DNA of 64,000 bases from Alphaproteobacteria bacterium US3C007 (lineage in GTDB: Bacteria > Pseudomonadota > Alphaproteobacteria > Rhodobacterales > Rhodobacteraceae), in contig CP139918.1 of the NCBI GenBank assembly GCA_034423775.1, forward strand, positions 1,736,001 through 1,800,000. Direction: 5' to 3'. This document shows positions 4,910 to 37,337 of this stretch, one piece after another (the first letter of the stretch is position 1; each line of letters begins with the position of its first letter). The notes under the pieces were generated by a model that was not told where the DNA came from, made no database searches, and saw only the letters and a program-made list of their open reading frames with translations. The position numbers and the translations under genes are program-made.

Positions 4910-5899
4910 GTGAAAAAATACAAAGTTGTGGGTATTGGTAATGCCGTGGTTGATGTGATCAGCCAATCAAGTGATACGTTTCTTCAGCGGATGGGCATTG
5001 AAAAAGGCATCATGCAACTGATCGAAAAAGAGCGCGCGGAAGCGCTGTATGATGCAATGGAAAACCGCGTTCAAGCGGCGGGCGGCGCGGTTGCGAATAC
5101 GTTGGCAGGTTTGGGCGCACTGGGCCTTGAAACGGCGTTTGTGGGGCGCGTCAGAGACGATGCGCTGGGGCAGTTTTACGCGCAAGCCATGCAGGAAGGT
5201 GGAACCCATTTTGTGAACCCGCCAGTTCAGGATGCGCATTTACCAACCTCACGTTCGATGATCTTCACCTCTGCCGATGGGGAACGCTCGATGAACACCT
5301 ATTTGGGAATTTCGGCGGAGCTGGGCCCCGAAGATGTCTCGAGCAGCGTGGCAAAAGAGGCTGAATATGTATTCTTGGAAGGTTATCTATTCGATAAGGA
5401 TAAGGGCAAACAAGCCTTTGTCGAGCTGTCGCGGGCTTGCCGTTCAGCCGGTGGCAAGGCCGGAATCGCGATTTCCGATCCCTTCTGCGTTGAACGGCAC
5501 CGCGCGGATTTTCTGAATTTGATTGAGCATGAGTTGGATTACGTGATCGGCAATGACGCTGAAATTAAATCTTTGTTTGAAACCGATGATCTTGAAACGG
5601 CGCTGGCGAAAACCGCAGAGATTTGCGAATTGGTGGTCTGCACCAGAGGCGGTGAGGGCGTGAGCGTGATCGCCAAGGGGGCGCGCGTGGACGTGCCGGT
5701 TGACGAAATCACCCCGGTGGATGCGACGGGCGCGGGCGATCAATTCGCTGCTGGATTTTTATATGGCTTGGTGACCAAACAGCCCATTGAGATTTGTTGT
5801 AAAATGGGATGCATCGCGGCGGGCGAGGTTATTCGCCATATTGGCGCTCGGCCTGAAACCTCGGTGCGCGGTTTGTTTGAGGCGGCAGCGCTGTTGTAA
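4910..5899 (+). CDS. PfkB-family sugar/adenosine kinase
   Basis: A ribokinase-like kinase of 329 residues. The N-terminal GIGNAVVDV and the C-terminal signature DATGAGDQFAAGF (catalytic Asp277) are diagnostic. Close relatives in alphaproteobacteria are annotated adenosine kinase. The GTG at 4910 is preferred because GAAGGA at 4895-4900 lies 9 bases upstream and VKKYKVVGIG is the expected N-terminus. An ATG at 4871 is in frame but overlaps nth. The substrate (adenosine or a sugar) is not fixed by the sequence. Confidence 0.85.
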   Translation: MKKYKVVGIGNAVVDVISQSSDTFLQRMGIEKGIMQLIEKERAEALYDAMENRVQAAGGAVANTLAGLGALGLETAFVGRVRDDALGQFYAQAMQEGGTHFVNPPVQDAHLPTSRSMIFTSADGERSMNTYLGISAELGPEDVSSSVAKEAEYVFLEGYLFDKDKGKQAFVELSRACRSAGGKAGIAISDPFCVERHRADFLNLIEHELDYVIGNDAEIKSLFETDDLETALAKTAEICELVVCTRGGEGVSVIAKGARVDVPVDEITPVDATGAGDQFAAGFLYGLVTKQPIEICCKMGCIAAGEVIRHIGARPETSVRGLFEAAALL

Positions 5900-5901
5900 G
5901 C

Positions 5902-6729
5902 TTACCCCGGGTTTTCCAAGAGGGCGGTATGCAGGTTGTCCAAATGTATTTCGCGCTCTGGATTTGCGTTTTTGGGATCGTTTAATCGATAACCAAAAAG
6001 CTCAAAATCCTGCTGGTAAATACCTTCCATCAGGAAAAGGGCTGTTTGATCAAAATAGGCCTCTAACGGGAGGTTTGAGCTGTTCGTTACCTTGTTAAAC
6101 TGGGTGTGTGATACGTGTTGCGGCCGGTGGTTTGGTGAAAGGTGATCAAAAATATAATCCATGCCATGATCAAAATACTCAACCCAGATTATTTTATCAA
6201 AACGCCCGCCTTGCCGAATAAAATCACCAAGTTGCGCGGCCATTGGACGCCAGTGAATATCCAGCTGGGCCATGCTATCACTGCGGGCACAATCGTGAAC
6301 AAAGACTAAGAAGCGACGAAAGGCGTTGATCCGCGCCTCGGGATCGCCATAAAATGCAGGCTCTATCATATTTGGATCAAGACCATAGGCTTGGCTTAAG
6401 ATCTCATGGATCTTGTGACTGTAAAACATACCATCATGCTGCGGGCTACAAATTTTGTCTAAAAACGCGGAAACGATGCGCGCATAGGGATTTCTAACGC
6501 AGCTGAATGTGAAGGTTGTTCGCGCCGTCACATGCGCCATCAATATTTTGCGGCTGGTGTCAAAATCCCATTTATGAAGACCGGTTTTCAGATTGTGAAA
6601 TTCACCCTTGAAAAAGTGACCATGGTCCGAAAAATATAACAATTGCCCGATGCTGGAACAGGCGCATTTGGGCAGCGAGCGGTATAAAACTGTTTCGCTT
6701 TTCGGCATCCAAAGCCCTGGTAAATCCAT
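5902..6729 (-). CDS. Sulfotransferase-family protein
   Basis: This 275-residue protein has the two PAPS-binding elements of membrane-type carbohydrate sulfotransferases (Sulfotransferase_2). A 5'-phosphosulfate loop, SLPKCACSSIG, spans about residues 18-28. A 3'-phosphate element, RNPYARIVSAF, spans about 79-89. It would move sulfate from PAPS to a hydroxyl group on a glycan or small molecule. The acceptor is unknown and no polysaccharide cluster lies next to it. The gene converges tightly on the PfkB kinase, with stop codons about 2 bases apart. Confidence 0.75.
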   Translation of the reverse strand: MDLPGLWMPKSETVLYRSLPKCACSSIGQLLYFSDHGHFFKGEFHNLKTGLHKWDFDTSRKILMAHVTARTTFTFSCVRNPYARIVSAFLDKICSPQHDGMFYSHKIHEILSQAYGLDPNMIEPAFYGDPEARINAFRRFLVFVHDCARSDSMAQLDIHWRPMAAQLGDFIRQGGRFDKIIWVEYFDHGMDYIFDHLSPNHRPQHVSHTQFNKVTNSSNLPLEAYFDQTALFLMEGIYQQDFELFGYRLNDPKNANPEREIHLDNLHTALLENPG

Positions 6730-6935
6730 CTCTAAAATCTCAATATAAAAATTAAACGGTGGCTCAAAAAATTATAGCAACAGGCTAGCATAGTTTAAGC
6801 TGCGCGCGATATTTTTTGTTGTAGCCCCCCGAGCCTGCCGGGTTTTTCTTTGAAAGAGCCCGTTTAACGCTTTTGCGCTTTTGCGCATCCTGTTAGGATT
6901 TGCCCAGAGTTTGAGAGTGAAGCCATGGGGGTGAA

Positions 6936-7313
6936 ATGGGCTATACATACGATCCGGATAATATTTTTGCAAAAATTTTAAGGGGTGAAATCCCAAACAA
7001 GACGGTGTTGGAGACCGAGCATAGCTTGGCGTTTGAAGATATTCAGCCCCAAGCACCGGTGCATGTGCTGATTATTCCCAAAGGCCCCTATGTGAGTTTT
7101 GATCATTTTTCCGCGGCGGCCAGCGCCGATGAGATCGTTGATTTCACGCGCGCCATTGCAGCGGTGTGCAAGCAAATGGGGGTGGATGTGCCAAGCGGCG
7201 GTGGCTTTCGGGCGATCTCCAACGCCGGTGCAGACGGGGTGCAGGAAGTGCCGCATTTGCATCTGCATATTTTGGGCGGGCGTGGCTTGGGACGGATGCT
7301 TTCAACGGTTTAG
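6936..7313 (+). CDS. HIT-family nucleotide hydrolase
   Basis: A histidine triad protein of 125 residues. The triad is in VPHLHLHILGG (His107, His109, His111). Family members hydrolyse or transfer nucleoside monophosphates, for example from AMP-lysine. The length is typical of HinT proteins. A GGGGGTGAA stretch directly before the ATG serves as ribosome binding site. It is divergent from the sulfotransferase and convergent with the ABC ATPase. Confidence 0.9.
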   Translation: MGYTYDPDNIFAKILRGEIPNKTVLETEHSLAFEDIQPQAPVHVLIIPKGPYVSFDHFSAAASADEIVDFTRAIAAVCKQMGVDVPSGGGFRAISNAGADGVQEVPHLHLHILGGRGLGRMLSTV

Positions 7314-9092: not shown

Positions 9093-11885
9093 ATGAATTT
9101 TGGCAAAGGGCACCATTTGCACTTGATCGATGGCTCGGCTTTCATCTTTCGCGCCTATCACGCTTTGCCACCTTTAACCCGCAATTCAGATGGATTGCCT
9201 GTGGGCGCGGTGAGCGGGTTTTGCAACATGCTGCAGCGCTATGTCGAAAGCAATACTGGCCCCGATGCGCCCACCCATGTTGCGGTGATTTTTGACAAAG
9301 GCAGCCATACGTTTCGCAATGATCTTTATGATCAATATAAAGCCAATCGCGATGAAATGCCCGAAGATCTGCGCCCGCAAATGCCCCTGACGCGCGCTGC
9401 AACGCGCGCGTTCAATATCGCCTGCGAAGAGGTCGAAGGCTATGAGGCCGATGATATCATCGCAACCTTATCGGTTCAGGCGCGCGATGCAGGTGGACGG
9501 GTGACGATTATCAGCTCAGACAAAGACCTTATGCAGCTTGTTGGGGGCGGCGTTGATATGTTTGATGCGATGAAAAACCGCCATATTGACCGCGATGGCG
9601 TGTTCGAAAAATTTGGTGTTTTCCCCGAGCGGGTTGTGGATGTGCAGGCTTTGGCCGGAGATAGCGTGGATAATATTCCCGGCGCGCCAGGTATTGGGGT
9701 GAAAACAGCCGCGCTTTTGATCAATGAATATGGGGATCTTGAAACGCTGTTAGAGCGGGCTGAAGAGATCAAACAGCCCAAACGCCGCGCAACCTTGATC
9801 GATCATGCCGCGCAAATTCGCCTATCACGTCAATTGGTCGAGCTGGATTGCGCCACGCCGCTAGACTTCACGCTGGAGGATTTAGAAGTGCGCGCGCCCG
9901 AGCCCGAAACCCTATTGGGTTTTCTGGCGGAAATGGAATTTCGCACATTAACGGCGCGTATCGCCAGCAAGCTGGGCGCGGAACCGCCCCAAATTGCCAC
10001 CGCCGCTGCGCTTGAAACGCCCGCGCTTATCGAACAGCCGGCCTTTGATCGTAGCGCTTATTGCGCGCTACATGATCTTGCATCTTTGCACGCGTGGATC
10101 GATAAAATCCGCCAGCGTGGCTATGTGGCCATCGATACGGAAACCACGTCTCTGGATGAAATGCGCGCTGAGCTGGTGGGGATTTCTTTGGCGGTCGCGC
10201 CGGGTGAGGCCTGTTATATTCCGATATCGCATAAAGAAGGCAGCAGCGATGATTTATTCGGATCATCAAAATTAGCTGCGGGCCAAATGAAGATGGATCA
10301 GGTGATTGGGCTTTTGCAACCCATCTTGGAAGATCCGGCGATCCTGAAAATTGGCCAAAATATGAAATATGATGCCAAAATTCTTGAGCGGCAGGGCATT
10401 CGCATCGCGCCGATCGACGATACCATGCTGTTATCCTATGCACTGCATGCGGGCTTGCATAATCACGGCATGGACAGTCTATCGCAGCGCTATTTGGACC
10501 ACACGCCTATTCCGATCAAACCACTTTTGGGAAGTGGGAAATCAGCGGTTACCTTTGATCTTGTGCCGATTGAAGAGGCCACACCCTATGCTGCTGAGGA
10601 CGCTGATATCACGCTGCGCCTTTGGCAGCTTTTGAAGCCCAAATTGCATCTTCAGAAAGTGACTCGCGTTTATGAGGGGCTTGAGCGGCCTTTGATACCA
10701 GTTTTGGCCCAGATGGAGATGACCGGGATCAAAGTGGATCGCGATACGCTGTCTCGCATGTCCAACGCCTTTGCACAGAAAATGGCGGGTCTTGAGGCTG
10801 AAATTCACGATATGGCGGGGGAAAGCTTTAATGTGGGCAGTCCAAAGCAACTGGGCGAGATTATGTTTGACAAGCTGGGCTATGAGGGGGGCAAGAAAGG
10901 TAAAACGGGGGCTTACGCCACTGGAGCGGATATTTTGGAAGATTTGGCCACCATACATGACTTGCCCAAGCGCGTGCTGGATTGGCGTCAATTGAGCAAG
11001 CTCAAATCCACCTATACCGATGCGCTGCAAGATCATATCCACCCCGAAACGGGCCGCGTGCATACCTCTTACTCAATCGCTGGGGCCAATACCGGTCGTT
11101 TGGCCTCTACCGACCCGAATTTGCAGAATATCCCGGTGCGCAGTGAGGATGGTCGACGCATTCGCGAAGCCTTTATTCCCGAAGAGGGCAAGGTTTTGGT
11201 GAGCCTGGATTACAGCCAAATCGAATTGCGCATTCTGGCGCATGTCGCGGGCATTGATAGTCTGAAGCAAGCTTTTCGTGAGGGGCAAGATATCCACGCT
11301 CTGACGGCTTCGGAAATGTTTGATGTGCCATTGGACGAGATGACGCCGGATATTCGTCGGCAAGCCAAAGCAATTAATTTTGGCGTTATATATGGTATTT
11401 CAGGCTTTGGGCTGGCGCGCAATTTGCGTATTCCGCGCAGCGAGGCACAAGGGTTTATCGATCGCTATTTTGAACGGTTTCCGGGGATCAAAGAATATAT
11501 GGACGATACGGTTGCCTTCGCCAAAGCCAATAACCGCGTGGAAACCCTGTTTGGCCGTGTCATCCATACGCCTGAGATCAATGCCAAAGGTCCAACCGCA
11601 GGCTTTGCCAAGCGCGCGGCGATCAACGCGCCGATCCAGGGCACCGCGGCGGATATTATCCGCCGAGCGATGATCCGAATGCCGCATTCGATCGCTGATT
11701 TGCCGGCGAAGATGCTTTTGCAAGTGCATGATGAACTGCTATTCGAAGTGGAACGCCACGCGGTGGATCAATTGATTGATGCTGCGCGAGGGGTTATGGA
11801 AAACGCCGCAGATCCGATCGTGAAGCTGGACGTTCCGTTGATCGTTGACGCGGGGCAAGGGGCGCATTGGGCTGAGGCGCATTAA
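9093..11885 (+). CDS. polA: DNA polymerase I
   Basis: A full-length 930-residue polymerase. The 5'-3' exonuclease covers about residues 1-290 (IDGSAFIFRAYH at the start; SSDKDLMQLV). The 3'-5' exonuclease follows (about 320-520) with its acidic residues present (AIDTETTSLDE; NMKYDAK; AAEDADIT), so proofreading should be active. The polymerase domain fills the rest, with DYSQIELRILAH, the O-helix region RRQAKAINFGVIYG, and LQVHDELLFEV. It acts in Okazaki fragment processing and repair synthesis. AAAAAGGAAAA upstream of the ATG is the ribosome binding site. Confidence 0.98.
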   Translation: MNFGKGHHLHLIDGSAFIFRAYHALPPLTRNSDGLPVGAVSGFCNMLQRYVESNTGPDAPTHVAVIFDKGSHTFRNDLYDQYKANRDEMPEDLRPQMPLTRAATRAFNIACEEVEGYEADDIIATLSVQARDAGGRVTIISSDKDLMQLVGGGVDMFDAMKNRHIDRDGVFEKFGVFPERVVDVQALAGDSVDNIPGAPGIGVKTAALLINEYGDLETLLERAEEIKQPKRRATLIDHAAQIRLSRQLVELDCATPLDFTLEDLEVRAPEPETLLGFLAEMEFRTLTARIASKLGAEPPQIATAAALETPALIEQPAFDRSAYCALHDLASLHAWIDKIRQRGYVAIDTETTSLDEMRAELVGISLAVAPGEACYIPISHKEGSSDDLFGSSKLAAGQMKMDQVIGLLQPILEDPAILKIGQNMKYDAKILERQGIRIAPIDDTMLLSYALHAGLHNHGMDSLSQRYLDHTPIPIKPLLGSGKSAVTFDLVPIEEATPYAAEDADITLRLWQLLKPKLHLQKVTRVYEGLERPLIPVLAQMEMTGIKVDRDTLSRMSNAFAQKMAGLEAEIHDMAGESFNVGSPKQLGEIMFDKLGYEGGKKGKTGAYATGADILEDLATIHDLPKRVLDWRQLSKLKSTYTDALQDHIHPETGRVHTSYSIAGANTGRLASTDPNLQNIPVRSEDGRRIREAFIPEEGKVLVSLDYSQIELRILAHVAGIDSLKQAFREGQDIHALTASEMFDVPLDEMTPDIRRQAKAINFGVIYGISGFGLARNLRIPRSEAQGFIDRYFERFPGIKEYMDDTVAFAKANNRVETLFGRVIHTPEINAKGPTAGFAKRAAINAPIQGTAADIIRRAMIRMPHSIADLPAKMLLQVHDELLFEVERHAVDQLIDAARGVMENAADPIVKLDVPLIVDAGQGAHWAEAH

Positions 11886-18623: not shown

Positions 18624-21367
18624 TGCTGGGCTGGAGCGCCATCGCGTTCAACGCCCCCTGGGTGCTTTGGGGGCTGCTGCTTCTGCCGCTTCTTTGGATC
18701 TTGTTGCGGGCTCTGCCGCCCGCACCTGTGCAAAGGCTGTTTCCGGCGGTGGGTTTGTTGCTGGGGTTGGAAGATGAAACCCAAACCAGCGCGCATGCGC
18801 CTTGGTGGCTGCTTGTTTTGCGCAGCCTGGCAATTGCGGCGGTTTTGATTGGGTTTGCAGGTCCGATTCTCAACCCGCAAACGCAGCTTGATCGCGGCCC
18901 AGACCTTTTGATCGTGGTGGATGGCGCATGGGCCGCAGCACCTGAGTTCCAGTTTCAACGGGATATGTTAAAGGCCGATTTGCGCAAAGCTGCGCGGGCG
19001 GGGCAACGGGTTGGCGTGATTCTGGCAACCGCTCCAAACCCGATTGCATTTCAAAGCGCGCAAGCGGTGGTGCAAGAAATCGAAACGCTACAGCCGCGCC
19101 CCTATGCCCCGCGATGGACGCAGGTGAACGCGCAGCTAGAGGCGTTAAGAGGCCTAAAATTTGACACGCTTTGGCTCTCGGATGGTTTAGATTATGACGG
19201 CGCTCGTCAAGATATCCTGCAGCGGTTGCGCGCGGCAGGCAGGGTGCGTTTGATCTCTGCACAGACTGAAATTTTGACGCTGGGCGAGTTGCAATACGCG
19301 GCAGGGCAGGTGTCTCTAAGCCTGCGCCGCAGCGCGCATGGATCAAATCGCTCGGTACGTATTTTGGGAATTGGCCGCGATCCTGCAGGAACAAGAACGG
19401 TTTTGCTGCGCGAAACACTTAATCTGATCGCTGGCGAAACAGATCAGGAGGTAAAGTTTAAAGCGCCAGCAGAAGTTTTATCACGGCTTGAAAGGTTTGA
19501 GATTGAGGGGCAAGATCATGCGGCGGCGCTTTATTTGTTGGGCAATCAAATTAAGCGCGCCGAAGTGGCCTTATTTGGCGGGCCGGCAAGCGCCGAAAGC
19601 TTGGACCTTTTAGATCCGCTGCATTTTGTTCAAAAGGCGTTGGCGCCAAAAGTGGCCTTCATCACTGGGGCGTTAGAGCAGGTTTTGCTGGCCAATCCTG
19701 ATCTTATCATTTGGGCCGATATGCTGCCTTTGGCCGATCCTGAACCGCTGCTGGATTGGGTGAAAGCTGGGGGGACATTGGTGCGGTTTGCGGGCCCAAG
19801 ATTGGCGGCTGCAAATCCAGCGGCCTTGCGCGAAGATCCTTTGCTGCCAGTCGTGTTGCGGCAAGGCGGGCGTCGGCTTGGCGGCGCAATGAGTTGGGAA
19901 CAACCTAAAGCAATTGAGCCCTTTGCGCTTGATGGCCCGTTTTCCGGCTTGACCCTGCCCCCTGATATTCGTGTGAGGGCCCAGGTTTTGGCGCAACCCA
20001 GCCCAGATTTGGCCGCGCGTGTTCTCGCCCGGTTGCAAGACGGAACGCCACTGATCACCCGCAAAGAAGCTGGTTCGGGGCAGATCGTGTTCTGGCATAT
20101 CACCGCCAATACAGACTGGAGCAACTTACCCTTAAGTGGTTTATTCTTGGATATGCTTAACCGGCTGAACGCGGCGCGGGGCTGGCAGGATGAGGTGCCG
20201 TTGGCGGCTGGGACGGTGTGGAGTCCAGTTCAGGTTCTGGATGGCTTTGGTGAAATAATGGATGCGGATTACCTGCCAGGAATTGAGGCCGAGCAGTTAC
20301 AGCAGCGGCGCTTTGGAGCGCTTAGCCCGCCAGGCTTGTATGAATTTAAGGGGCAGCTGGCGTCTCACAATCTTGAGCCAAAATCTGCAGATTTGGCGCC
20401 CATGATCTGGCCGGACTGGGTACAAAAACTAGATGTCACGCAACAGACACGCGAGCTCAGCGGGTGGTTTTTAAGCTTGGCTCTTATTGCTCTGGCGGTG
20501 GATGTTTTGGCCAGTTTGGCGCTGAGTGGCCGCACCATAATCGCGGGGGCGATTTTGGCCACCGCCACTTTGGCTCATAATCCAACCACCGTTCATGCCC
20601 AAAACAGGCTGCCAAGTGATGTCACAGCGGCCAGCTCAACGGTGACGTTGGGGCATGTCATAACAGGGGATTCAAAGCTGGATCTTTTGGCTTTTCAAGC
20701 CCTGGATGGGCTATCGCGCCGCATGGGAGAGCGCACATCGGTTGAGCCAGGGCAACCGCGGGGCGTGAATTTGGACGAGGATGAACTGGCGCTTTTCCCG
20801 ATTTTATACTGGTTGATCAGTCCCGATCAGCCAGCGCTGAGCGCTAAAGCGGCTGATAAATTGAACGGATTTATGCAAACGGGCGGTGTGCTGTTTATCG
20901 ATACGCGCGATGCCGATCTTGGCCAGATCACAAGCCAAAGCCGCGAAAACCAAGTGTTGCGGCGCCTCGCGCGCATCTTGGATGTGCCTGCGCTTGAGCC
21001 GGTGCCAGAGGGGCATGTGCTGACGCGCAGTTTTTATCTATTGCAGGATTTTCCCGGCCGGTTTCGAAATGGCCCGCTTTGGGTGGCACAAAGCATGGCG
21101 AGTGACGCTGGTGAAAGCGGCTTGCCCTTTCAAGTGCGCAATGACGGGGTGACCCCGATATTGATTGGCAGCAATGATTGGGCCGCGGCCTGGGCGGTCG
21201 ATAGGCAGGGGCGCGCCCTATACCCCGTGGGCCGCGGATATATCGGGGAAAGACAGCGCGAAATCGCGTTTCGCTTTGGCATTAATCTGCTGATGCATGT
21301 GTTGACCGGAAATTACAAATCCGACCAGGTGCATGTTCCTGCATTGCTTGAGCGGCTTGGGCAATGA
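18623..21367 (+). CDS. BatA N-terminal/DUF4159 membrane protein
   Basis: A 914-residue protein. The N-terminal part (about residues 5-80) has two hydrophobic segments (WVLWGLLLLPLLWILL; LRSLAIAAVLIGFAG) typical of the aerotolerance-regulator BatA N-terminus. A large central region contains IVVDGAW and WLSDGLDYDG, a degenerate VWA-like fold. Further membrane segments lie at about 618-652, followed by a C-terminal DUF4159 domain (about 690-910). It probably sits in the inner membrane with long periplasmic or cytoplasmic parts. Its operon suggests assembly work with the MoxR ATPase; the client is unknown. Confidence 0.82.
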   Translation: MLGWSAIAFNAPWVLWGLLLLPLLWILLRALPPAPVQRLFPAVGLLLGLEDETQTSAHAPWWLLVLRSLAIAAVLIGFAGPILNPQTQLDRGPDLLIVVDGAWAAAPEFQFQRDMLKADLRKAARAGQRVGVILATAPNPIAFQSAQAVVQEIETLQPRPYAPRWTQVNAQLEALRGLKFDTLWLSDGLDYDGARQDILQRLRAAGRVRLISAQTEILTLGELQYAAGQVSLSLRRSAHGSNRSVRILGIGRDPAGTRTVLLRETLNLIAGETDQEVKFKAPAEVLSRLERFEIEGQDHAAALYLLGNQIKRAEVALFGGPASAESLDLLDPLHFVQKALAPKVAFITGALEQVLLANPDLIIWADMLPLADPEPLLDWVKAGGTLVRFAGPRLAAANPAALREDPLLPVVLRQGGRRLGGAMSWEQPKAIEPFALDGPFSGLTLPPDIRVRAQVLAQPSPDLAARVLARLQDGTPLITRKEAGSGQIVFWHITANTDWSNLPLSGLFLDMLNRLNAARGWQDEVPLAAGTVWSPVQVLDGFGEIMDADYLPGIEAEQLQQRRFGALSPPGLYEFKGQLASHNLEPKSADLAPMIWPDWVQKLDVTQQTRELSGWFLSLALIALAVDVLASLALSGRTIIAGAILATATLAHNPTTVHAQNRLPSDVTAASSTVTLGHVITGDSKLDLLAFQALDGLSRRMGERTSVEPGQPRGVNLDEDELALFPILYWLISPDQPALSAKAADKLNGFMQTGGVLFIDTRDADLGQITSQSRENQVLRRLARILDVPALEPVPEGHVLTRSFYLLQDFPGRFRNGPLWVAQSMASDAGESGLPFQVRNDGVTPILIGSNDWAAAWAVDRQGRALYPVGRGYIGERQREIAFRFGINLLMHVLTGNYKSDQVHVPALLERLGQ

Positions 21368-29210: not shown

Positions 29211-29222
29211 CCTGCCCTAGGA
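29211..29222 (+). repeat. Left attachment repeat (attL core)
   Basis: CCTGCCCTAGGA, identical to 37326-37337. At this end it forms the centre of a perfect inverted repeat, CGGTTCCT-GCCCT-AGGAACCG (29206-29226). Paired arms around a short core are typical of tyrosine-recombinase crossover sites. It lies 139 bases before the integrase start. Confidence 0.7.
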
Positions 29223-29360
29223 ACCGAACACTTATTTATCTCTGTCTTTTCTATTCATCGTTGAATAAATTATATAATATAATCAGTTATTTGAGAATTT
29301 AGCACATTTATCCAAACCCGAATCTATCCTATACTATCCTATGAAAACTGTGGGACTGAA

Positions 29361-30542
29361 ATGCCAGCCGAAAAGCGTTTAACCGATCGCCAAATCAAAA
29401 ATAGCCCCCCCGGCAAGCTATATGATGGGGGCGGTCTTATATGTGTAAAGGGCGCAAATTCAGCTAAATGGGTTTATAGGTATACGCTATATTCTGCGCG
29501 CCGCGATATGGGGTTGGGAACTTATCCACAAATTTCGTTAGCCCAAGCGCGAGAGCTACTGGCAGAGTATCGAACTCTTGTGGCTCAAAAGATAGATCCC
29601 ATTAAACAACGTCAAAAAGCTGCTATAGAGGCTGCTGGTTCGGACAATAGTTTTCATGCGGTGGCAAAAATCACCTTTGAGGCGAAAAAGCCAGAGCTTA
29701 AGCATGATGGCTCAGCAGGACGATGGTTCTCTCCATTAAAGGTGCACATTATTCCAAAACTTGGGAACCGTGATGTGCAGGAGATTGATCAGCGCGATAT
29801 TTTTGAAGTGCTTAAGCCTATTTGGCATATTAAAGCAGACAGTGCTCGAAAGGCTCTAGGTCGCGTTGGTCATGTGCTTCAGCATGCAGCCGCAATGGGG
29901 CTGTCAGTTGATCTAAATGTGGTTCCGCTTGCAAAGGAGCTGCTGGGAAAGTCTAAACACCAATCCAAAAAAACACCATCTCTCGAATGGCAAAAAGTCC
30001 CAGAATTCTATCAAAGCTTGAATGAGAATACGCCGATCCAATTAGCTCTGAAGCTCTTAATCCTCACAGGTTCGCGCTCGGGGCCTGTAAGATATATGAC
30101 GACCTCTCAAATAGATCAGGATACTTGGATTATCCCTGCGGAAAATATGAAGGGTAGAGTTGGCAAAACTGCTGATTTTCGTATTCCGCTTTCAGATGCA
30201 TCTCTTGATATTATTGATTTTGCCAGAAGATTTTCGCGTGATGGTTTCTTATTCCCCGGTCTGCGTAAAGGGGTCATTAGCGATGTAAGCATGGCGCGCG
30301 TAATGCAGCGTCGAGGTATGCAAGAACGCCCACATGGATTTAGAGCCAGCTTGGAGACATATTTAGCAGAAACCACAGATGCTGATTATGAGTTAAAGAA
30401 ATCTATGTTGGGCCATGCAATTGGGGACCAAGCTTACAGAAGTTATCAGCGCTCTGATTATTTGGAAAAGCGCCGAGAGCTTTTGAGTAATTGGGCGAAT
30501 TTTTTAACTCAATCGTCGAATATAATAAAGCTAAGGGTTTAG
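29361..30542 (+). CDS. Tyrosine-type integrase (DUF4102 arm-binding)
   Basis: A 393-residue site-specific recombinase. The N-terminal arm-binding domain starts MPAEKRLTDRQIKN and holds DGGGLICVKGANSAKW and DMGLGTYPQISLAQAR. Catalytic residues are the Arg in LTGSRSGPVR, HGFRASLE (HxxR), LGHAIGDQA, and the nucleophile Tyr in AYRSYQRS. The enzyme looks intact, unlike the other mobility genes of the element. It presumably recombines the repeats at 29211 and 37326. Three GTGGGACT copies (29350, 37246, 37258) may be arm-type sites. Confidence 0.93.
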   Translation: MPAEKRLTDRQIKNSPPGKLYDGGGLICVKGANSAKWVYRYTLYSARRDMGLGTYPQISLAQARELLAEYRTLVAQKIDPIKQRQKAAIEAAGSDNSFHAVAKITFEAKKPELKHDGSAGRWFSPLKVHIIPKLGNRDVQEIDQRDIFEVLKPIWHIKADSARKALGRVGHVLQHAAAMGLSVDLNVVPLAKELLGKSKHQSKKTPSLEWQKVPEFYQSLNENTPIQLALKLLILTGSRSGPVRYMTTSQIDQDTWIIPAENMKGRVGKTADFRIPLSDASLDIIDFARRFSRDGFLFPGLRKGVISDVSMARVMQRRGMQERPHGFRASLETYLAETTDADYELKKSMLGHAIGDQAYRSYQRSDYLEKRRELLSNWANFLTQSSNIIKLRV

Positions 30543-30546
30543 ATTT

Positions 30547-31023
30547 ATGACATACACATGGACAGCAGAAACTTTGCTTAGACCGATAGAATGCGAAGGT
30601 GATGTAGTTGATTTTCTTACCCGCGGTATGTCGAAAGCTGACTGTAAGGACCTATTGCTCCTAGGCCTATATTGCAGGCACAAAATTTTGGATAACAGCA
30701 AAAAGCGTTCACGTAGAGGCCGCCCGATCAAGCTCAATTCCATAGATAGCGAGCGGGCCGCAATAATTTTAAATCTTGTAAAATGGCAAAAACGTTCGAT
30801 GCCGATAAGGAAATGGGTGGACTTGGCTCAGCAATGCGAGGCAATTTTAAAAACTGTCGGCGACAAACGGGGAAAGACGCTTCTCCCGGATGGAAAGAGT
30901 TATTTTCCTAAGACTATGATAACCGCAAAAAGATTAGAAAATTCGGTGTGCCGAGGCATGAAAGAACTTGGTGTGAACTTTCGTTTATATCAAAAAAATC
31001 CTGAAGAATATCCCGAGATTTAA
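30547..31023 (+). CDS. Hypothetical protein of the integrative element
   Basis: A 158-residue protein starting 4 bases after the integrase stop. It has a basic middle (KKRSRRGRPIKLN, about residues 55-67), mixed helical segments and no membrane segment. No family was recognised. Its position suggests a role in integration, excision or element regulation, but nothing specific supports this. Confidence 0.6.
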   Translation: MTYTWTAETLLRPIECEGDVVDFLTRGMSKADCKDLLLLGLYCRHKILDNSKKRSRRGRPIKLNSIDSERAAIILNLVKWQKRSMPIRKWVDLAQQCEAILKTVGDKRGKTLLPDGKSYFPKTMITAKRLENSVCRGMKELGVNFRLYQKNPEEYPEI

Positions 31024-31082
31024 TCAATAAATTCATAGTGGCATGTCCAGATCAGTTTTAACTCATTTGAGGATAGCTGATC

Positions 31083-31268
31083 ATGAAGTTGATTACCTTT
31101 GACGAACTCAGAAACAAACTTGGCGGCCGGGCTCGCTCGTCAATATATCTGGATCTTGAACATGCGCGCTTACCAATTCCGCTTAAATTAGGCGGTCGGC
31201 TCTACTGAGAAGAAGACCAGATTAATAAATGGATCAAAGAACGCCTACGGCAGGGGCAAAGACCATGA
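31083..31268 (+). pseudogene. AlpA-like excisionase/regulator with TGA at a Trp position
   Basis: The frame encodes MKLITFDELRNKLGGRARS, IYLDLEHARLPIPLKLGGR and LY, then TGA (31206-31208), then EEDQINKWIKERLRQGQRP and a final stop at 31266. This is the whole AlpA/MerR-like winged helix pattern, in which GGRxxxW is followed by the last helix. The TGA replaces the conserved Trp (TGG to TGA). The last bases overlap the next start (ATGA). Such proteins usually activate excision or integrase expression, so control of mobility is probably lost. Confidence 0.7.
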
Positions 31269-32176
31269 TTGCACCTTGCAAGATTACCGCTGCAGCGGAA
31301 CTGCTCGATCTGAAAATTCTTAGTAAGTCTCCATCTGAATGGCGGATTGGTAACAAAGGCTCTCTGTCTTTGGACTTAAATAAAGACTGTTTTTATGACC
31401 ATGAACATTCAAAAGGCGGTGTTGTTTTGGATCTAATTCAGCATTTAGGTCGTGCTTCAAACACGCAAGAAGCTGCGCAATTTTTGGAAGATAATGGTTT
31501 AATCGAGAATAAGCATTCCGTTTCACCAAAGTCTAAAAAGCCGCTGCGAGAGCACGTCTACGTTGATGGGTCAGAGAAGAACGTTCGAAAATCCGTCAAA
31601 TATACTGATGGCAGTTGGAAGAAATTGCTTTGCGTTACGCGCCCAGCTGTATCATTATTGATACTGTGCGAGCGTTTTAAAGCCACATGAAAAAACTGGT
31701 AATTATAATGTTTCCGTTGATAAATACGCTGCGCTTCGCAAACTTGCTCACAAACAAAAAATTGCAATTCTGGTCGTGCATCATACCAAAAAGACAACGG
31801 AAGTAAGCTTATCCCCATTAGAGCAGATCCTTGGGAGTACCGGTATCACTGCTACTGTTGAAACGATTCTGGTGATGGAGAACATCATTGGGAAAAAGAC
31901 CGTAAACTTCATGTAACTGGCAAAGATGTTGAACAAAACGAGTTCTACTTAGCTTGGAACGGTGCGGGATATGATTTTTGTGAGGACGCAGAAGTCGCGG
32001 GTCTAGGTTCGGCTCAACTGGAGGTGTATGACCTGATTAAACAGTATCCCCGCTGCTCTCAGGGTAAGCTTGTTAAGATGATCGGAAAAGATCAGGGGCA
32101 GATCTCAAAAATACTATACGCTCTCCAAGATAAAGATTTGATTATGAAGCTTGAGCAGGGTTATGTCGCAAAATAG
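31265..32176 (+). pseudogene. Broken primase/RepA-like ATPase gene
   Basis: The first part (31265-31690) encodes a primase-like N-terminus (WRIGNKGSLSLDL; FYDHEHSKGGVVLDLI). From about 31622 another frame encodes part of a RecA-like (AAA_25/RepA) ATPase: ALRYAPSCIIIDTVRAF, then after a frameshift near 31678 EKTGNYNVSVDKYAALRK and AILVVHHTKKT. After a second shift near 31880 come HHWEKDRKLHVTGKDVEQN and a winged-helix-like C-terminus ending QGYVAK at 32176. The Walker A segment between the two parts is missing, pointing to a deletion. The element's own replication gene is therefore dead. Confidence 0.75.
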
Positions 32177-32322
32177 ATGCCTTAAGTATCATATTGATCA
32201 TATATCATATGCATCATAATTACGTATTAATGTGATATTTATAATAAATACGGCGCTTATTTCTTTGAGCCCTGTAAATTTTAAGTATTGATTTAAGCCT
32301 TCTTTTGAGGAAAGCTTATTCT

Positions 32323-32979
32323 ATGTCTCAAGCCTTGGAAAATTTATTAATTACTGCCGAACTTGCATCCCCAATAATAATTGGTGGGGGCTTTATGACT
32401 TTTGATGCTTTACTAGCGGCTATTGTTTTTGAGACGACAGAGGATCTTGAACAGGCTCATAATGGCTTGCCCCTACATCGGTCAGGCGAGTTATTTCATG
32501 CAAGTGCTGCGATCATGTTCCCGGATGCAAAACAAGATCAAACCTTTTCGGCCAGTATGCGCTGGGATCACGACTTTTCGCCAGACGTATTTAAAAAAAC
32601 CAGTAAGGGCAAACTTCGTAAAGTTAGTGCAAAACGAAAACGCGATTTTGGAAATATTTTCAATACTTATAAGTCGTTCATAGCCCCTGAAATACTCTGG
32701 TATTGTGAAGGCGACAGGTCGGAAATAGGAAGACTACTGGCTAATGTTGAATTTATAGGAAAGCGTCGCGGAAGTGGCTTTGGACAGGTGAAGAACTGGA
32801 GGGTAGAGCCGGGTAAATATGATGGTTTACTTGGTCTAAATCAAAACCCACTGCGGCCAATACCGGAAGTCTTATATGAAGGAAATGATAACGCTTTAAA
32901 GATCGAAGCATCTTGGAAGCCCCCCTATTGGGAACCAGCGCATAGGGCTATCTGCTATGTGCCGGAGTTTATCAAATGA
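32323..32979 (+). CDS. csf3: Type IV CRISPR protein Csf3 (Cas5-like RAMP)
   Basis: A 218-residue protein that resembles Csf3, the Cas5-like subunit that caps the crRNA 5' handle in type IV-A effector complexes. It opens with LLITAELASPIIIGGGFMTFDALLAAIV and has the LPLHRSGELFHASAA element. A glycine-rich loop, GKRRGSGFGQVKNW, lies near residues 147-160. The ATG at 32323 has GAGGAAAG about 9 bases upstream and is preferred over TTG 32305. It heads the cas operon and overlaps the next gene by ATGA. The family call is by motif pattern and gene company. Confidence 0.75.
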   Translation: MSQALENLLITAELASPIIIGGGFMTFDALLAAIVFETTEDLEQAHNGLPLHRSGELFHASAAIMFPDAKQDQTFSASMRWDHDFSPDVFKKTSKGKLRKVSAKRKRDFGNIFNTYKSFIAPEILWYCEGDRSEIGRLLANVEFIGKRRGSGFGQVKNWRVEPGKYDGLLGLNQNPLRPIPEVLYEGNDNALKIEASWKPPYWEPAHRAICYVPEFIK

Positions 32980-33437
32980 ACAGCTTTATTTTTTTTCATG
33001 ATCATTTTGGAAAGTATTTTTCTTCTGAGCGTAGTAATAAGTTACATATGGATGCCAGCCGAGTCCTGCGAGCTTCTTATCCATTAAAGGGAAAACCAAA
33101 GCCAACAAGATTGGCATTCGGTTGGGCGATCATTCGGCCGGGTACAAGCTCATTAAAATTAAATTTAGACATTTCAGGGCTTGCTTGTGATCCAAGGCCA
33201 GAAAGCATGTCTTTCTTGGAGGAGCTTAAGAGTTGGGACGACACTCCGAGGATGTTTTTATTATTTGGTAAAGCGCCAATCCCTATTTCAAATTTATTTC
33301 TAACGCTTGATTTGCGCGCGGTTAGGATCTGTAGCCCAAAGGGGGTGGAGACCTTTGATTTCACAAAAACGCCAGAAGAAACCGGCAGTAATTTCCACAA
33401 GCGGCTGGTGAATATGGATAAAAAAAATGCTGCGTGA
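32976..33437 (+). CDS. Unknown type IV locus protein, candidate Csf1-like subunit
   Basis: A 153-residue protein between csf3 and the cas6-like gene, overlapping both (4 and 11 bases). Every other backbone subunit of a type IV-A complex is encoded here except the large subunit Csf1, so this is the candidate. It contains WDDTPRMFLLFGKAPIPISN (about residues 88-107) but only two cysteines, so the zinc finger of typical Csf1 is absent. It could be a reduced Csf1, a small subunit or an unrelated accessory protein. Confidence 0.55.
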   Translation: MNSFIFFHDHFGKYFSSERSNKLHMDASRVLRASYPLKGKPKPTRLAFGWAIIRPGTSSLKLNLDISGLACDPRPESMSFLEELKSWDDTPRMFLLFGKAPIPISNLFLTLDLRAVRICSPKGVETFDFTKTPEETGSNFHKRLVNMDKKNAA

Positions 33438-33930
33438 TCATGTGATTCCAAAGCCAGAAACCATAGTGGGTTATAAGCTTCATCAACTAGTTGAAGGCCT
33501 AACTGAGGGTGATGCTCCACTATTCTTAGATCGCGGGAAGTCTTTATTGATAAGGACTGAAAAAAAGATAACGGAGACTGGCACTGCCGTAGAAATTCCC
33601 AGTGGGAGCTCGATTATTGGATTTGAACTGCGGGCATGCGTTTCGAAAAAAGTAAAAGGAAAGCACCGCTATTTTCCGGTATCAAATTATCAAATCAGGC
33701 ACGGTTGGCTCAGGACCAAGGGAGAGCAATTTGGCTTTGAGCCTTTAACGGTAACTTGTTCCTGCGAGATGAAGAAACTCACAGATGGTGGATCCAGGTC
33801 CTTCCAAATTGATCACACAGATTTTGCTGGGACTTTAAAGGTAATTGATGAACAGAAATTTAAAAAAGCAATGGAAACCGGTGTTGGGTCGACAGCCCGC
33901 GCTTTCGGTTATGGCATGTTAATTTTATGA
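33427..33930 (+). CDS. csf5: Cas6e-like crRNA endonuclease (Csf5)
   Basis: A 167-residue RAMP protein. The C-terminal glycine-rich loop GVGSTARAFGYGMLIL closely follows the Cas6e/Cas6f signature (GxGxxxAFGxGxL). Short length and the FELRACVSKKVKGKHRYFP region suit a compact Cas6. It should cut the repeat at the base of its hairpin and make crRNAs with an 8-base 5' handle. His residues at about positions 5, 19 and 60 are catalytic candidates only. It lies in the csf operon, 13 bases before csf2. Confidence 0.75.
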   Translation: MLRDHVIPKPETIVGYKLHQLVEGLTEGDAPLFLDRGKSLLIRTEKKITETGTAVEIPSGSSIIGFELRACVSKKVKGKHRYFPVSNYQIRHGWLRTKGEQFGFEPLTVTCSCEMKKLTDGGSRSFQIDHTDFAGTLKVIDEQKFKKAMETGVGSTARAFGYGMLIL

Positions 33931-33943
33931 GTGGGAGAAGAAA

Positions 33944-34882
33944 ATGCTGATTTTGACAGGTGAAATTACACTCGTTGAGCCCCTTTCAATATCCATGGGT
34001 GGCGAAGAGTATGGCGGATTTCCCATGATCCCTCGGTATGTAGAAGATGGATCTTTAGAGCCGACTGGTTTCCTGCCAGCAACTACTTTGCGCGGCCGTT
34101 TGCGCCGAGGGTATGTTAAACGAGAAATGAAAGCCGCTGCTGAACGCGGGGAGCACTACTCGCTTAAACAGGCCTACAATGAAGTAATCGGTCAGAATGC
34201 CGAGAGTGAAAAAGAAGCCGGTGAAATAGATTTAGTGGAGGTTAAAGAAACGCGTGAGGCTTCACCCATTTTAGACCTGTATGGAAGCGGCATTGGTATT
34301 GCCAGTCGTTTGCGCGTAAGCAATTTCTTTCCAGAAAATAATGTGGAGCCAAATAAACTGCAAACATTTCGCAAAGATTTAGACGTGTCTGATGAAATTT
34401 TACAAAGTTTGTCAAAGGAAGATCAGGACCGTTTTTATAATCGGAAAGACTTGAACAGCAGGCGATCAAAATGGCAAACTAATGTAGAAAAATTAAACCG
34501 TGATATTGCTGCCGCAAAACGAAAAAAGGAAGTTACCGCAGACTTAGAAGCTCAAAAGAAAGAAGCTGAAAAAAAATATAATGAGGTTCTTACCGAAATG
34601 GGCGATATGATGAAGGTGTCGTCGCCTTTACCGGTTAAGTGCTACGCTCTGCCTCCTGGCTTGAAATTGTTTGGAAAAATCGTTGTGGTGAATGATAAGC
34701 CAATGGATTTAGAAATATTAGAAGCTGGTTTGGATGATTTGAGTCGCGACCCAGTTTTGGGTGCGGCCTCTGCTCGGGGTTGCGGTGAAATAGAAGGCGA
34801 ATTTACGGTTTCCATTGACGGAGAGCATAAAAAAACCATTCGCTTTGGCGGTTATAAGCCTATTGAAGTAGAAAATTTATGA
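33944..34882 (+). CDS. csf2: Type IV CRISPR backbone protein Csf2 (Cas7-like)
   Basis: A 312-residue Cas7-like RAMP that would polymerise along the crRNA. Family marks are FLPATTLRGRLRRGYVKRE (about residues 44-62), the region around GSGIGIASRLRVSNFF, and LGAASARGCGEIEGEF near the end (about 269-284). A long, charged, helical insertion with many Lys/Glu lies at about 145-215 (coiled-coil-like). The gene ends 48 bases before the first repeat of the array. Confidence 0.8.
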   Translation: MLILTGEITLVEPLSISMGGEEYGGFPMIPRYVEDGSLEPTGFLPATTLRGRLRRGYVKREMKAAAERGEHYSLKQAYNEVIGQNAESEKEAGEIDLVEVKETREASPILDLYGSGIGIASRLRVSNFFPENNVEPNKLQTFRKDLDVSDEILQSLSKEDQDRFYNRKDLNSRRSKWQTNVEKLNRDIAAAKRKKEVTADLEAQKKEAEKKYNEVLTEMGDMMKVSSPLPVKCYALPPGLKLFGKIVVVNDKPMDLEILEAGLDDLSRDPVLGAASARGCGEIEGEFTVSIDGEHKKTIRFGGYKPIEVENL

Positions 34883-34930
34883 AAGGAAAAGGAAGTTTTA
34901 TAAATCAATACAGAGTATTACGATGGATCT
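34883..34930 (+). promoter_or_regulatory. Short leader-like segment before the CRISPR array
   Basis: This 48-base AT-rich stretch lies between csf2 and the first repeat and contains a partial repeat start (GATGGA at 34923-34928). No clear promoter was seen, so the array is probably read from the csf operon transcript. It is called leader-proximal because the opposite end has the truncated repeat. Confidence 0.4.
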
Positions 34931-35490
34931 GATGGAGCCACTCTGGATATGAGTGGTTACTACAAGTGTAATTTATTCGGCCAGTAACGTGATACAGATG
35001 GAGCCACTCTGGATATGAGTGGTTACTACAAGGAGGCTAGACCTTGGCTCAGCTGTAAAATGATGGAGCCACTCTGGATATGAGTGGTTACTACAAGTTA
35101 AGAAAAGCACCTTTAAGATTAGCCCCTTGATGGAGCCACCCTGGATATGAGTGGTTACTACAAGCGCAAAACAACGAGTGAGCCGCAACGCTGTGATGGA
35201 GCCACCCTGGATATGAGTGGTTACTACAAGAGTTCTTCACAATTAAGTTGTTTTTTGCTGGATGGAGCCACCCTGGATATGAGTGGTTACTACAAGCAGC
35301 GGTTTGAAAGGTTGTGAAAATCACTTAGATGGAGCCACCCTGGATATGAGTGGTTACTACAAGAATATGGCTTGCCAGAACACTGTTCGCCGTGATGGAG
35401 CCACCCTGGATATGAGTGGTTACTACAAGTCTGTGTCAAGCATCCGGCCCAACTGACTTGATGGAGCCACTCTGGATATGAGTGGTTACT
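34931..35490 (+). CRISPR. Type IV CRISPR array, nine repeats and eight spacers
   Basis: Eight 36-base repeats start at 34931, 34997, 35062, 35129, 35195, 35261, 35328 and 35394, and a ninth of 31 bases at 35460. Spacers are 29-31 bases. Each repeat can fold an 8-bp stem (positions 6-13 with 21-28, one G-U pair) with a 7-base loop, leaving an 8-base 3' handle ACTACAAG. This fits Cas6 cutting and plus-strand reading. Position 12 is T in repeats 1-3 and 9 and C in repeats 4-8. The last repeat lacks ACAAG and is followed by T-rich DNA. No cas1/cas2 is present. Confidence 0.95.
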
Positions 35491-35517
35491 TTTTAAACTC
35501 TCAAGGAATTATCGTTT

Positions 35518-37071
35518 ATGTTTAGAAGCAAAGAACAAGAAACCTTTTACAAAACCATTTGCCTTCATCAGTCAAAGCTAGATGGGCCCTTGCTGCTCGA
35601 AGGCGGAACTGGTTTGGGTAAAACGCGCGCCTATCTCAAAGCACTCGTTGATTACGGCCAAAAAACGGCAATTGTTTTTCCAAGTCATCAGCTAATCGAT
35701 CAGCTACTGCAATCACAGGATTTAAAAGCAGTAGGCGCGAAAGTTAAAGCTTTCAGACCTGCAAGCTTTTTTGACGCGCAAGATACATACTTAGAAGCGA
35801 ACGAGGCCGCCAAAGAGGCGGATATTATGCTCTGCACTTCTGCGAGCGTCATGATCGATCAAATGCTTCAGGGCGGCTACAATGGAATAATAGAGCGAGC
35901 ATATATTATTTTTGACGAGGCAGACGGCCTTCCACAAGACGCGGCACTACAACAAGACTTAACAATTTTGGATGCAGAAATTTCGGCGTTTGGTTTAGAG
36001 TATCGTTCGGTTTCGGAAATATTACAGCAATTATCAGTACCCTCTATTTCAGCAGATCTGCGCGCCAGGGCTAGACTAATTAAAAAAGCGCATAGCAATC
36101 CTAAATGGTATTACACAGTGGGGAAAAATTCGAACGGAGATTTAGAGCTCAATCATAGAATGCCAGGGCTTTTGCTGAGCACAATTTCTAATCAAGCAAA
36201 TGTTGCCTTTGTAAGCGCCACACTAAGTATTTCAAATTCATTCGATGACTTTAAAAGGTCATTGGGCATAAAAACTACAAGCATTTATTCCCGTCAAATT
36301 GATCCAGAGCATCATGGAAATCTAAAAATTCATTATCCAAAAGAGCAGACCATAGAGACTATTGTTGAGGGTGCCAAAAAACCCTGCTTGGTTGTGCCAC
36401 CTAGTTTTGAAGATGCAGAAGCTTTGGCAAAACTCCTGCCTAAAGCAATAGTACGCGAGAGAAAAGAGTCCTCTGCGATGGCCGCTGAGCGGGTCCAGGA
36501 AGAGGGCGTCTTGATTGCTACAGGGGCATGGGCGGGGCTTGATACACCGATCCGCTGGGCGTCTGTAGTAGTTCCCAGGATACCTTTTGGGAAGCCAACT
36601 GAGTTAGATGGTAAAACACTTACCCACTATATAAGCAGTCGAAATCTTGCAGTTAGACGCATGCGTCAAGTTATTGGCCGCGGCCTTAGAACACCAGACA
36701 GTCGATGTGATTTTTATATCTGTGACAAGCGCTATAGCCAGTTGGGCAACTTTCTGCCAACGCGTTTCAACGCAAGCTGGAAAGAGGGTGCAAAGAAAAC
36801 ATATGAGCTGACAAAATTTGAAAGGGATCCCTCAGTGCGCCGGGAGGCCTTAAAGTTTTATGAGTTCAAATGTTATTGTTGTGATAAGCGGCCCAAAATA
36901 CAAAGCATGATTGAAATTCATCATCTTAATCCCATAGCTCAGGGTGAGAGAGAAACTAAGGTTGAAGACGTGTTACCGCTTTGTCGAAATTGCCACAGCG
37001 CAGCGCATTCAGAAGAGCCTCCGATCCCTATTGAGCGCCTGAAGGTGATGGATTTATGGAAGGTTGACTAA
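35518..37071 (+). CDS. csf4: CasDinG helicase fused to HNH nuclease (type IV CRISPR)
   Basis: A 517-residue superfamily 2 helicase of the DinG/XPD type. Walker A GGTGLGKT has Lys35, motif II is DEAD (133-136), motif III SATL (about 237-240) and motif VI QVIGRGLR (384-391). The cysteines of the DinG iron-sulfur cluster are not seen. A C-terminal HNH domain (about 450-505) has a CYCC zinc knuckle (452-455), HH (468-469), LCRNCH (488-493) and His497. In type IV-A systems CasDinG is recruited to the R-loop and unwinds DNA; the added nuclease would allow cutting. The start is 27 bases after the last repeat, with AAGGA at 35503-35507. Confidence 0.9.
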   Translation: MFRSKEQETFYKTICLHQSKLDGPLLLEGGTGLGKTRAYLKALVDYGQKTAIVFPSHQLIDQLLQSQDLKAVGAKVKAFRPASFFDAQDTYLEANEAAKEADIMLCTSASVMIDQMLQGGYNGIIERAYIIFDEADGLPQDAALQQDLTILDAEISAFGLEYRSVSEILQQLSVPSISADLRARARLIKKAHSNPKWYYTVGKNSNGDLELNHRMPGLLLSTISNQANVAFVSATLSISNSFDDFKRSLGIKTTSIYSRQIDPEHHGNLKIHYPKEQTIETIVEGAKKPCLVVPPSFEDAEALAKLLPKAIVRERKESSAMAAERVQEEGVLIATGAWAGLDTPIRWASVVVPRIPFGKPTELDGKTLTHYISSRNLAVRRMRQVIGRGLRTPDSRCDFYICDKRYSQLGNFLPTRFNASWKEGAKKTYELTKFERDPSVRREALKFYEFKCYCCDKRPKIQSMIEIHHLNPIAQGERETKVEDVLPLCRNCHSAAHSEEPPIPIERLKVMDLWKVD

Positions 37072-37325
37072 CTTTGAGTACGCGTCTGTAAGACAGTCTA
37101 ATGGGCCGACATTTTTTAATTTGATTTCAATATGTTATTTCGTAAAAGCCGCCGCTCACACGCTTTCTAAATTGTTTGAGTTTGATTTGACTGACATTTT
37201 TTCGAGCACTGGGAATCGGTTTTGGAATTCAGCCTAAAACCGCCTGTGGGACTATGAGTGGGACTTTCAATTCACAATCCTTTAAAATGTCAATTATTTC
37301 AGTAATTTAATATAGATTTATGGTG

Positions 37326-37337
37326 CCTGCCCTAGGA
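37326..37337 (+). repeat. Right attachment repeat (attR core)
   Basis: CCTGCCCTAGGA, identical to 29211-29222, lying 23 bases from the rbfA stop. Between the dinG-HNH stop (37071) and this site are 254 AT-rich bases with two GTGGGACT copies (37246-37253, 37258-37265) that also occur before the integrase (29350-29357). They may be integrase arm sites. Confidence 0.7.

Follow-up and report, generated by a model that had tools for sequence, protein, structure and literature searches.

The 64,000-nucleotide stretch of DNA from Alphaproteobacteria bacterium US3C007 analysed here (GenBank assembly GCA_034423775.1, contig CP139918.1, positions 1,736,001 to 1,800,000; hereafter the window) contains a type IV CRISPR (clustered regularly interspaced short palindromic repeats) operon at positions 32,323-37,071, which is encoded entirely on the + strand in the order csf3, a gene for a protein of 153 amino acids (aa), cas6, csf2, a CRISPR array, and a gene for a DinG-like helicase fused to an HNH domain (DinG-HNH). 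The csf3 gene (type IV Cas5/Csf3; 32,323-32,979) is recognized by PADLOC with an E value of 7.2e-43, and its product matches Csf3 chains from PDB (E 4.9e-8). It is followed by the gene for a predicted small Cas8/Csf1-like subunit (153 aa, 32,976-33,437), by cas6 (33,427-33,930), whose Cas6e-like product matches the PADLOC profiles of type IV Cas6 (E 2.4e-21) and Cas6e (E 6.8e-17) as well as PF08798 (56.6 bits), and by csf2 (type IV Cas7; 33,944-34,882; PADLOC E 9e-37). The array (34,931-35,495, + strand) consists of nine repeats of 36 nucleotides (nt) and eight spacers of 29, 30, or 31 nt, and the altered 3' end of its ninth repeat suggests, by the usual rule, a leader on the csf2 side. The last gene, casDinG-HNH (517 aa; 35,518-37,071), matches the type IV DinG/Csf4 profile of PADLOC (E 1.6e-62) and the Pfam families DEAD, Helicase_C_2, and HNH above their cut-offs. 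All five cas genes are open and full-length. A preliminary description of this DNA had named the same genes and array at these positions and had proposed a type IV system with a CasDinG-HNH fusion, and both statements agree with the PADLOC type IV profiles and the Pfam HNH match. The hallmarks of type IV-A, namely Csf2, Csf3, CasDinG, and a CRISPR array, are all present, and Csf1 has no match by sequence at the locus, although a Csf1-like fold is predicted for the 153-aa protein. Membership in type I-E was rejected, as the resemblance is limited to Cas6.

The HNH domain of the effector comprises residues 452-499 (36,871-37,014, + strand), where Pfam PF01844 scores 28.0 bits (cut-off 21.4), and the residues previously assigned to it proved to be exact (C452-Y-C-C455, H468-H469, and L488-C-R-N-C-H493). 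An alignment of the window protein with 42 of 120 listed homologues (409 were found) shows the Walker A and Walker B residues and H468 to be invariant in all 43 sequences, while H469, D484, C489, C492, H493, and H497 are conserved in 42 of them; the exceptions are P0024, with other residues at positions 452 and 469, and P0035, in which the domain is truncated at its end and residue 484 is replaced. The predicted structure (predicted local distance difference test, pLDDT, 81.5; predicted template modelling score, pTM, 0.73) is consistent with the proposed fusion, exhibiting at residues 465-496 the two strands and one helix expected for an HNH domain, and its closest solved fold is the DinG protein of type IV-A3 (Foldseek E 2.1e-19). 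Since the Foldseek matches mainly reflect the helicase part, the HNH fold is assigned from the Pfam match, the residues, and the secondary structure of the model. The first helicase motif already starts at about residue 28, which leaves no room for the N-terminal domain described for other CasDinG proteins (PMC12714560).

The reference in the preliminary description to a 2023 survey with a Sulfitobacter example was correct: Altae-Tran et al. (2023; PMC10910872) describe a DinG-HNH type IV-A variant from Sulfitobacter sp. JL08 which degrades DNA. As reported there, plasmid interference by the JL08 system depends on a protospacer adjacent motif (PAM), on each of the five components, and on the two active sites, the system cleaves directionally in vitro, and mutating the equivalents of H469, D484, and H493 abolished activity. 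A comparison with this reported locus, which had been suggested as a check, shows agreement in gene order and catalytic residues, with D133, E134, H469, D484, and H493 of the window protein aligning with D139, E140, H497, D514, and H523 of JL08. The same operon is carried by a genome that presumably represents JL08 or a very close strain, as judged from its sequence (genome G141, locus L016); its DinG-HNH has all five of these residues at the published positions. The order of the five genes and the array is identical in the window, in L016, and in two further loci, L001 and L018, of which L001 is the closest relative (66% identity in DinG-HNH). It also corresponds to the order cas5, cas8, cas6, cas7, array, casDinG-HNH, with cas8 recognized by predicted fold only, and a review names the small gene of DinG-HNH loci cas8 and gives a matching gene order (PMC11981726).

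The expectation that few members of this class are known holds for species-level genome samples, in which the fusion is rare, and does not hold for metagenome-scale protein data, which contain 409 homologues at E <= 0.001, with a Pfam HNH domain in 111 of the 120 listed. Genomes encoding DinG-HNH amount to 2 of 394 in the family, 2 of 390 in the order, 2 of 385 in the class, and 1 of 398 in the phylum, in overlapping samples that include the window's own genome; the order of genome G904 contributes 1 of 16 (G904 itself), the genus of G141 1 of 1 (G141 itself), and a search of the genome contigs one locus, L001. DinG-HNH was absent from phages and from viral contigs in two scans, of which the pattern step can miss relatives. 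Among 72,556 plasmid records, 138 match DinG-HNH, none of them at 80% coverage (the best coverage among 30 matches listed is 38%), whereas the wider type IV-A group, as traced by csf3, is found in 52 plasmid records, 43 of them over 80% of the csf3 length, so type IV genes are detectable in this set.

The operon is located in an integrative element (29,211-37,337; 8,115 bp from core copy to core copy), which is bounded by a 12-bp direct repeat, CCTGCCCTAGGA, forming the attL core (29,211-29,222) and the attR core beside an rbfA-like gene (37,326-37,337); 15 of 16 bp are identical over the empty-site overlap. In G1027, a genome labelled as the same species, the flanks are 99% and 100% identical and join at a single core without insert, and an empty site is likewise seen in G394 from the same genus (flanks about 95% and 93%). 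The flanking repeats and the empty sites in relatives confirm the earlier assignment to an integrative element, and a plasmid location is therefore rejected in favour of a chromosomal insertion. The element carries an intact tyrosine integrase gene (29,361-30,542, + strand; Pfam Arm-DNA-bind_3, Phage_int_M, and Phage_integrase above cut-off; PHROG integrase E 1.1e-40). A further genome of the genus, G336, shows the same host flank, core, integrase (94% protein identity), 158-aa gene, and AlpA-like gene in colinear arrangement up to window position 31,626, as well as a related right border beside rbfA (74% over 126 bp). Its cargo differs, consisting of an MFS transporter gene and the terminal part of a GAPDH-like gene (L015, 150-1,744), and DinG-HNH is absent from this genome. 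The GAPDH-like and MFS transporter pair resembles an arsenate-efflux cassette. The two G336 pieces, which lie on separate contigs, appear to form one element, and this sister species would then carry the same integrase module at the same site with other cargo.

Integration is not peculiar to the window copy. In L016 an island of about 13 kb extends from a tRNA-Ser gene (5,540-5,629) to a 26-bp repetition of that gene's end (96%; 18,685-18,710) and encloses an integrase gene (5,707-7,071), a resolvase gene, and the CRISPR operon. The preliminary description had set the window system apart by its integrative setting, of which the setting itself stands and the distinction does not, given the tRNA- and integrase-bounded island of the presumed JL08 genome. 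In L001 an integrase gene starts about 0.4 kb past dinG-HNH, on a contig too short to show the ends, and no integrase was seen in the eight neighbouring frames scanned at L018, which encode metabolic proteins or a subtilase. An integrase gene thus adjoins three of the four loci (window, L016, and L001), and ends are defined in two (window and L016). The short L001 contig also encodes a phage-type glycosyl hydrolase 108 (10,936-11,514). Between integrase and operon, the window element contains, all on the + strand, the 158-aa gene of the shared backbone (30,547-31,023; no Pfam or PHROGs match), an AlpA-like regulator gene (31,083-31,208; weak Pfam Phage_AlpA match, E 0.011, below cut-off), and broken pieces of a primase/helicase-like replication gene (31,229-32,176) with separate weak matches to PHROG DNA primase (E 0.0048), PHROG 3123 (unknown function; E 8.3e-6), and Pfam AAA_25 (E 0.0049, below cut-off). 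The AlpA-like and primase/helicase-like genes (31,083-32,176) are interrupted while the integrase stays open; the AlpA-like gene is uninterrupted in G336. Integrase relatives are common, with matches at E <= 1e-40 in 154 of 355 genomes of the family, and the window's genome encodes a second integrase which is 34% identical to that of the element.

For guide RNA production, Cas6 retains the residues Y16-x-x-H19 in all four loci, which we assume to be the catalytic pair of Cas6e, and its comparison with PDB gave chance-level matches only. The first repeat of the window array forms a hairpin (z -3.9), whose seven-pair stem is retained in ten repeats from the four loci. One stem pair is changed on both sides in four of the ten repeat rows, while one pair is broken in two rows and another in one, which provides modest covariation support from few and related rows. 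The last repeat (35,465-35,496) keeps the hairpin and ends with a T-run, giving it the look of an intrinsic terminator just before dinG-HNH; a regulatory terminator was rejected, since terminator-like sites are not enriched (6 found vs 5.1 expected from shuffles), and no T-run is present in the last repeats of L001, L016, and L018.

The 153-aa protein has 83 homologues in the protein database and no match in Pfam, PADLOC, NCBIfam, or PHROGs, and a profile search of PDB yielded nothing. Its predicted structure gave a best Foldseek match of E 0.04; among the matched chains, 8rc3_G and 7xg1_A were identified as Csf1 via a named Csf1 from Geoalkalibacter, 8rc2_G is probably Csf1 as judged from its chain letter, and two neighbours of a plasmid helicase from P. 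paraeruginosa, tried for the same naming, gave no match. The protein is thus predicted from its modelled fold to be a minimal Cas8/Csf1-like subunit. Cas8 of types IV-A1 and IV-A3 reads the PAM by a zinc finger (PMC11519345). The small protein has no CxxC motif, nor does any of 71 out of 71 aligned relatives, so this zinc finger is missing; a looser Cys/His zinc pattern occurs in two of the 71. The name IV-A2 has two meanings: in older usage it denotes type IV-A loci that lack Cas8 (cited in PMC11519345), and more recently, as in the 2025 classification, DinG-HNH loci (PMC12669027). A cryptic mini-Cas8 could reconcile both.

Possible targets were found among the relatives of the window array. 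Two of the seven L001 spacers match phage genes over their whole length: spacer 7 agrees at 27 of 30 positions with the gene for the major capsid protein in Erwinia phage Pastis (5' flank CCG, E 0.1, 44 bits), and spacer 4 at 26 of 30 with that for ribonucleotide reductase in Roseobacter phage CRP-738 (5' flank CCC, E 2, 40 bits). Both carry 5'-YCN on the 5' side, which is the PAM published for the JL08 system (PMC10910872), and five of the seven mismatches fall on third codon positions. A reversed-sequence control of this array hit three distinct places, all with E 7, the best at 38 bits, and none inside one spacer. These matches are suggestive of phage targets and make phages the likely prey; a third phage match of L001 was discarded because it straddles a repeat. 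The L018 array matched 12 phage records at 7 distinct places (E 0.3-4), five of which straddle repeats, and 20 plasmid records (E 0.3-4). The L016 array had no match in phages, and its six plasmid records (E 0.3-4) were judged by their coordinates to straddle repeats.

The window system is a rare DinG-HNH type IV-A system of a kind and mechanism already published, and it looks intact. We consider it to be, with a probability of about 0.85, a chromosomally integrated type IV-A DinG-HNH system which is the cargo of an integrase-bearing element and probably destroys incoming DNA by unwinding and cutting it under RNA guidance. The steps are those that others demonstrated for the JL08 system, transferred by homology. 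From the array transcript, Cas6 would release guides with spacers of about 30 nt by cleaving at the repeat hairpin; Csf3, Csf2, and the small Cas8-like protein would coat each guide and open matching DNA beside a PAM, which is probably 5'-YCN; and CasDinG-HNH would load on the displaced strand and move 5' to 3' with ATP, cutting both strands. DNA cleavage by the window system would thus follow by analogy.

Several observations weigh against this view. DinG-HNH is only 41% identical to its JL08 counterpart, and the remaining four proteins are 30-46% identical to theirs. No target was found in phages or plasmids for any of the eight window spacers (all three matches, E 2-8, fall within repeats or at the margin of the final one), the best match outside the array in four genomes of the genus is 18 nt long (E 0.16), and six of the spacers (1-4, 7, and 8) had no match as patterns in viral contigs. 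The L001 phage matches are individually weak (E 0.1 and 2), only one of the two L018 candidates has a YCN flank (CCC, the other being GTT), and the L018 matches were not counted as targets, since this GC-rich array yields many chance-level matches, plasmids included. In five of the nine window repeats (4-8), a change breaks one stem pair and weakens the stem (-8.3 vs -13.1 kcal/mol). Finally, Cas1 was not found in the whole genome, in a search whose control was positive in 9 of 14 genomes (Cas2 was not searched), so the array may be static. A lack of adaptation genes is frequent, though not universal, in type IV-A.

It is also conceivable, albeit doubtful, that the system mainly excludes competing plasmids or elements instead of phages, since plasmid competition is the main described role of type IV (PMC11656645) and the window copy itself rides on a mobile element; however, the two best spacer matches among the relatives are to phage genes, and the only plasmid-collection match of the L001 array (E 6) is in a 4.9-Mb E. 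coli record. Much less probable is a silencing mode as in types IV-A1 and IV-A3, in which the helicase would keep the target from being transcribed or replicated, with an HNH domain that is inactive or makes nicks only. This would conform to all other studied type IV-A systems, which are described as lacking a nuclease (PMC12669027), and to the mixed confidence of the HNH model with its low-pLDDT stretches (423-435 and 473-477), but it is at odds with the near-universal conservation of the zinc-binding cysteines and of H469, D484, and H493 (42 of 43) and with the loss of activity upon mutation of the JL08 equivalents. That the system is a decaying passenger, no longer acting in an element that is losing genes, is the least credible view, for which the interrupted AlpA-like and primase/helicase-like genes, the missing Cas1, the poorer folding of repeats 4-8, and the unmatched window spacers could be cited, but against which stand the open, full-length cas and integrase genes and the empty site in the same species, whose 99-100% identical flanks indicate a recent gain or loss of the element.

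Beyond RNA-guided DNA destruction by the single system, we tentatively propose, at rather less than even odds, that a nuclease-armed branch of type IV left plasmids for integrative elements, where it serves as exchangeable anti-phage cassettes at fixed chromosomal sites with a YCN PAM read by a Cas8 devoid of the zinc finger. If confirmed, the L001 phage matches would distinguish the DinG-HNH branch from type IV systems directed against plasmids. Being compact, naturally occurring, and precisely delimited, with a vacant site in a conspecific strain and an exchange of cargo at this site in a sister species, the window system offers a way to test how an integrative element profits from a CRISPR system that shreds DNA. 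The Cas8-like protein without zinc finger lends itself well to testing how the PAM is recognized, and such a cryptic protein may explain type IV-A loci described without Cas8. It is known in general that type IV systems can be carried by integrating elements and by prophages (PMC11656645). Publications on DinG-HNH systems comprise the 2023 paper, the 2025 classification, one review on DinG, and one engineering study, besides brief mentions elsewhere; we found no discussion there, supplements aside, of the island setting of these loci or the missing zinc finger, which we do not claim to be unpublished.

Compared with known systems, the window system shares with that of JL08 the five genes and array in order, the catalytic residues of helicase and HNH domain, and spacers of about 30 nt, whereas repeat, element, and integration site all differ. 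With types IV-A1 and IV-A3 it has Csf2, Csf3, Cas6, CasDinG, and, by the fold predicted for the small protein, Csf1 in common, and it differs from them by its nuclease, which these types are reported to lack (PMC11519345). A functional parallel may be type I with Cas3, in which a helicase-nuclease loaded at the R-loop likewise shreds DNA directionally, although the nucleases are unrelated (HNH vs HD) and the helicases only distantly related (PMC10910872).

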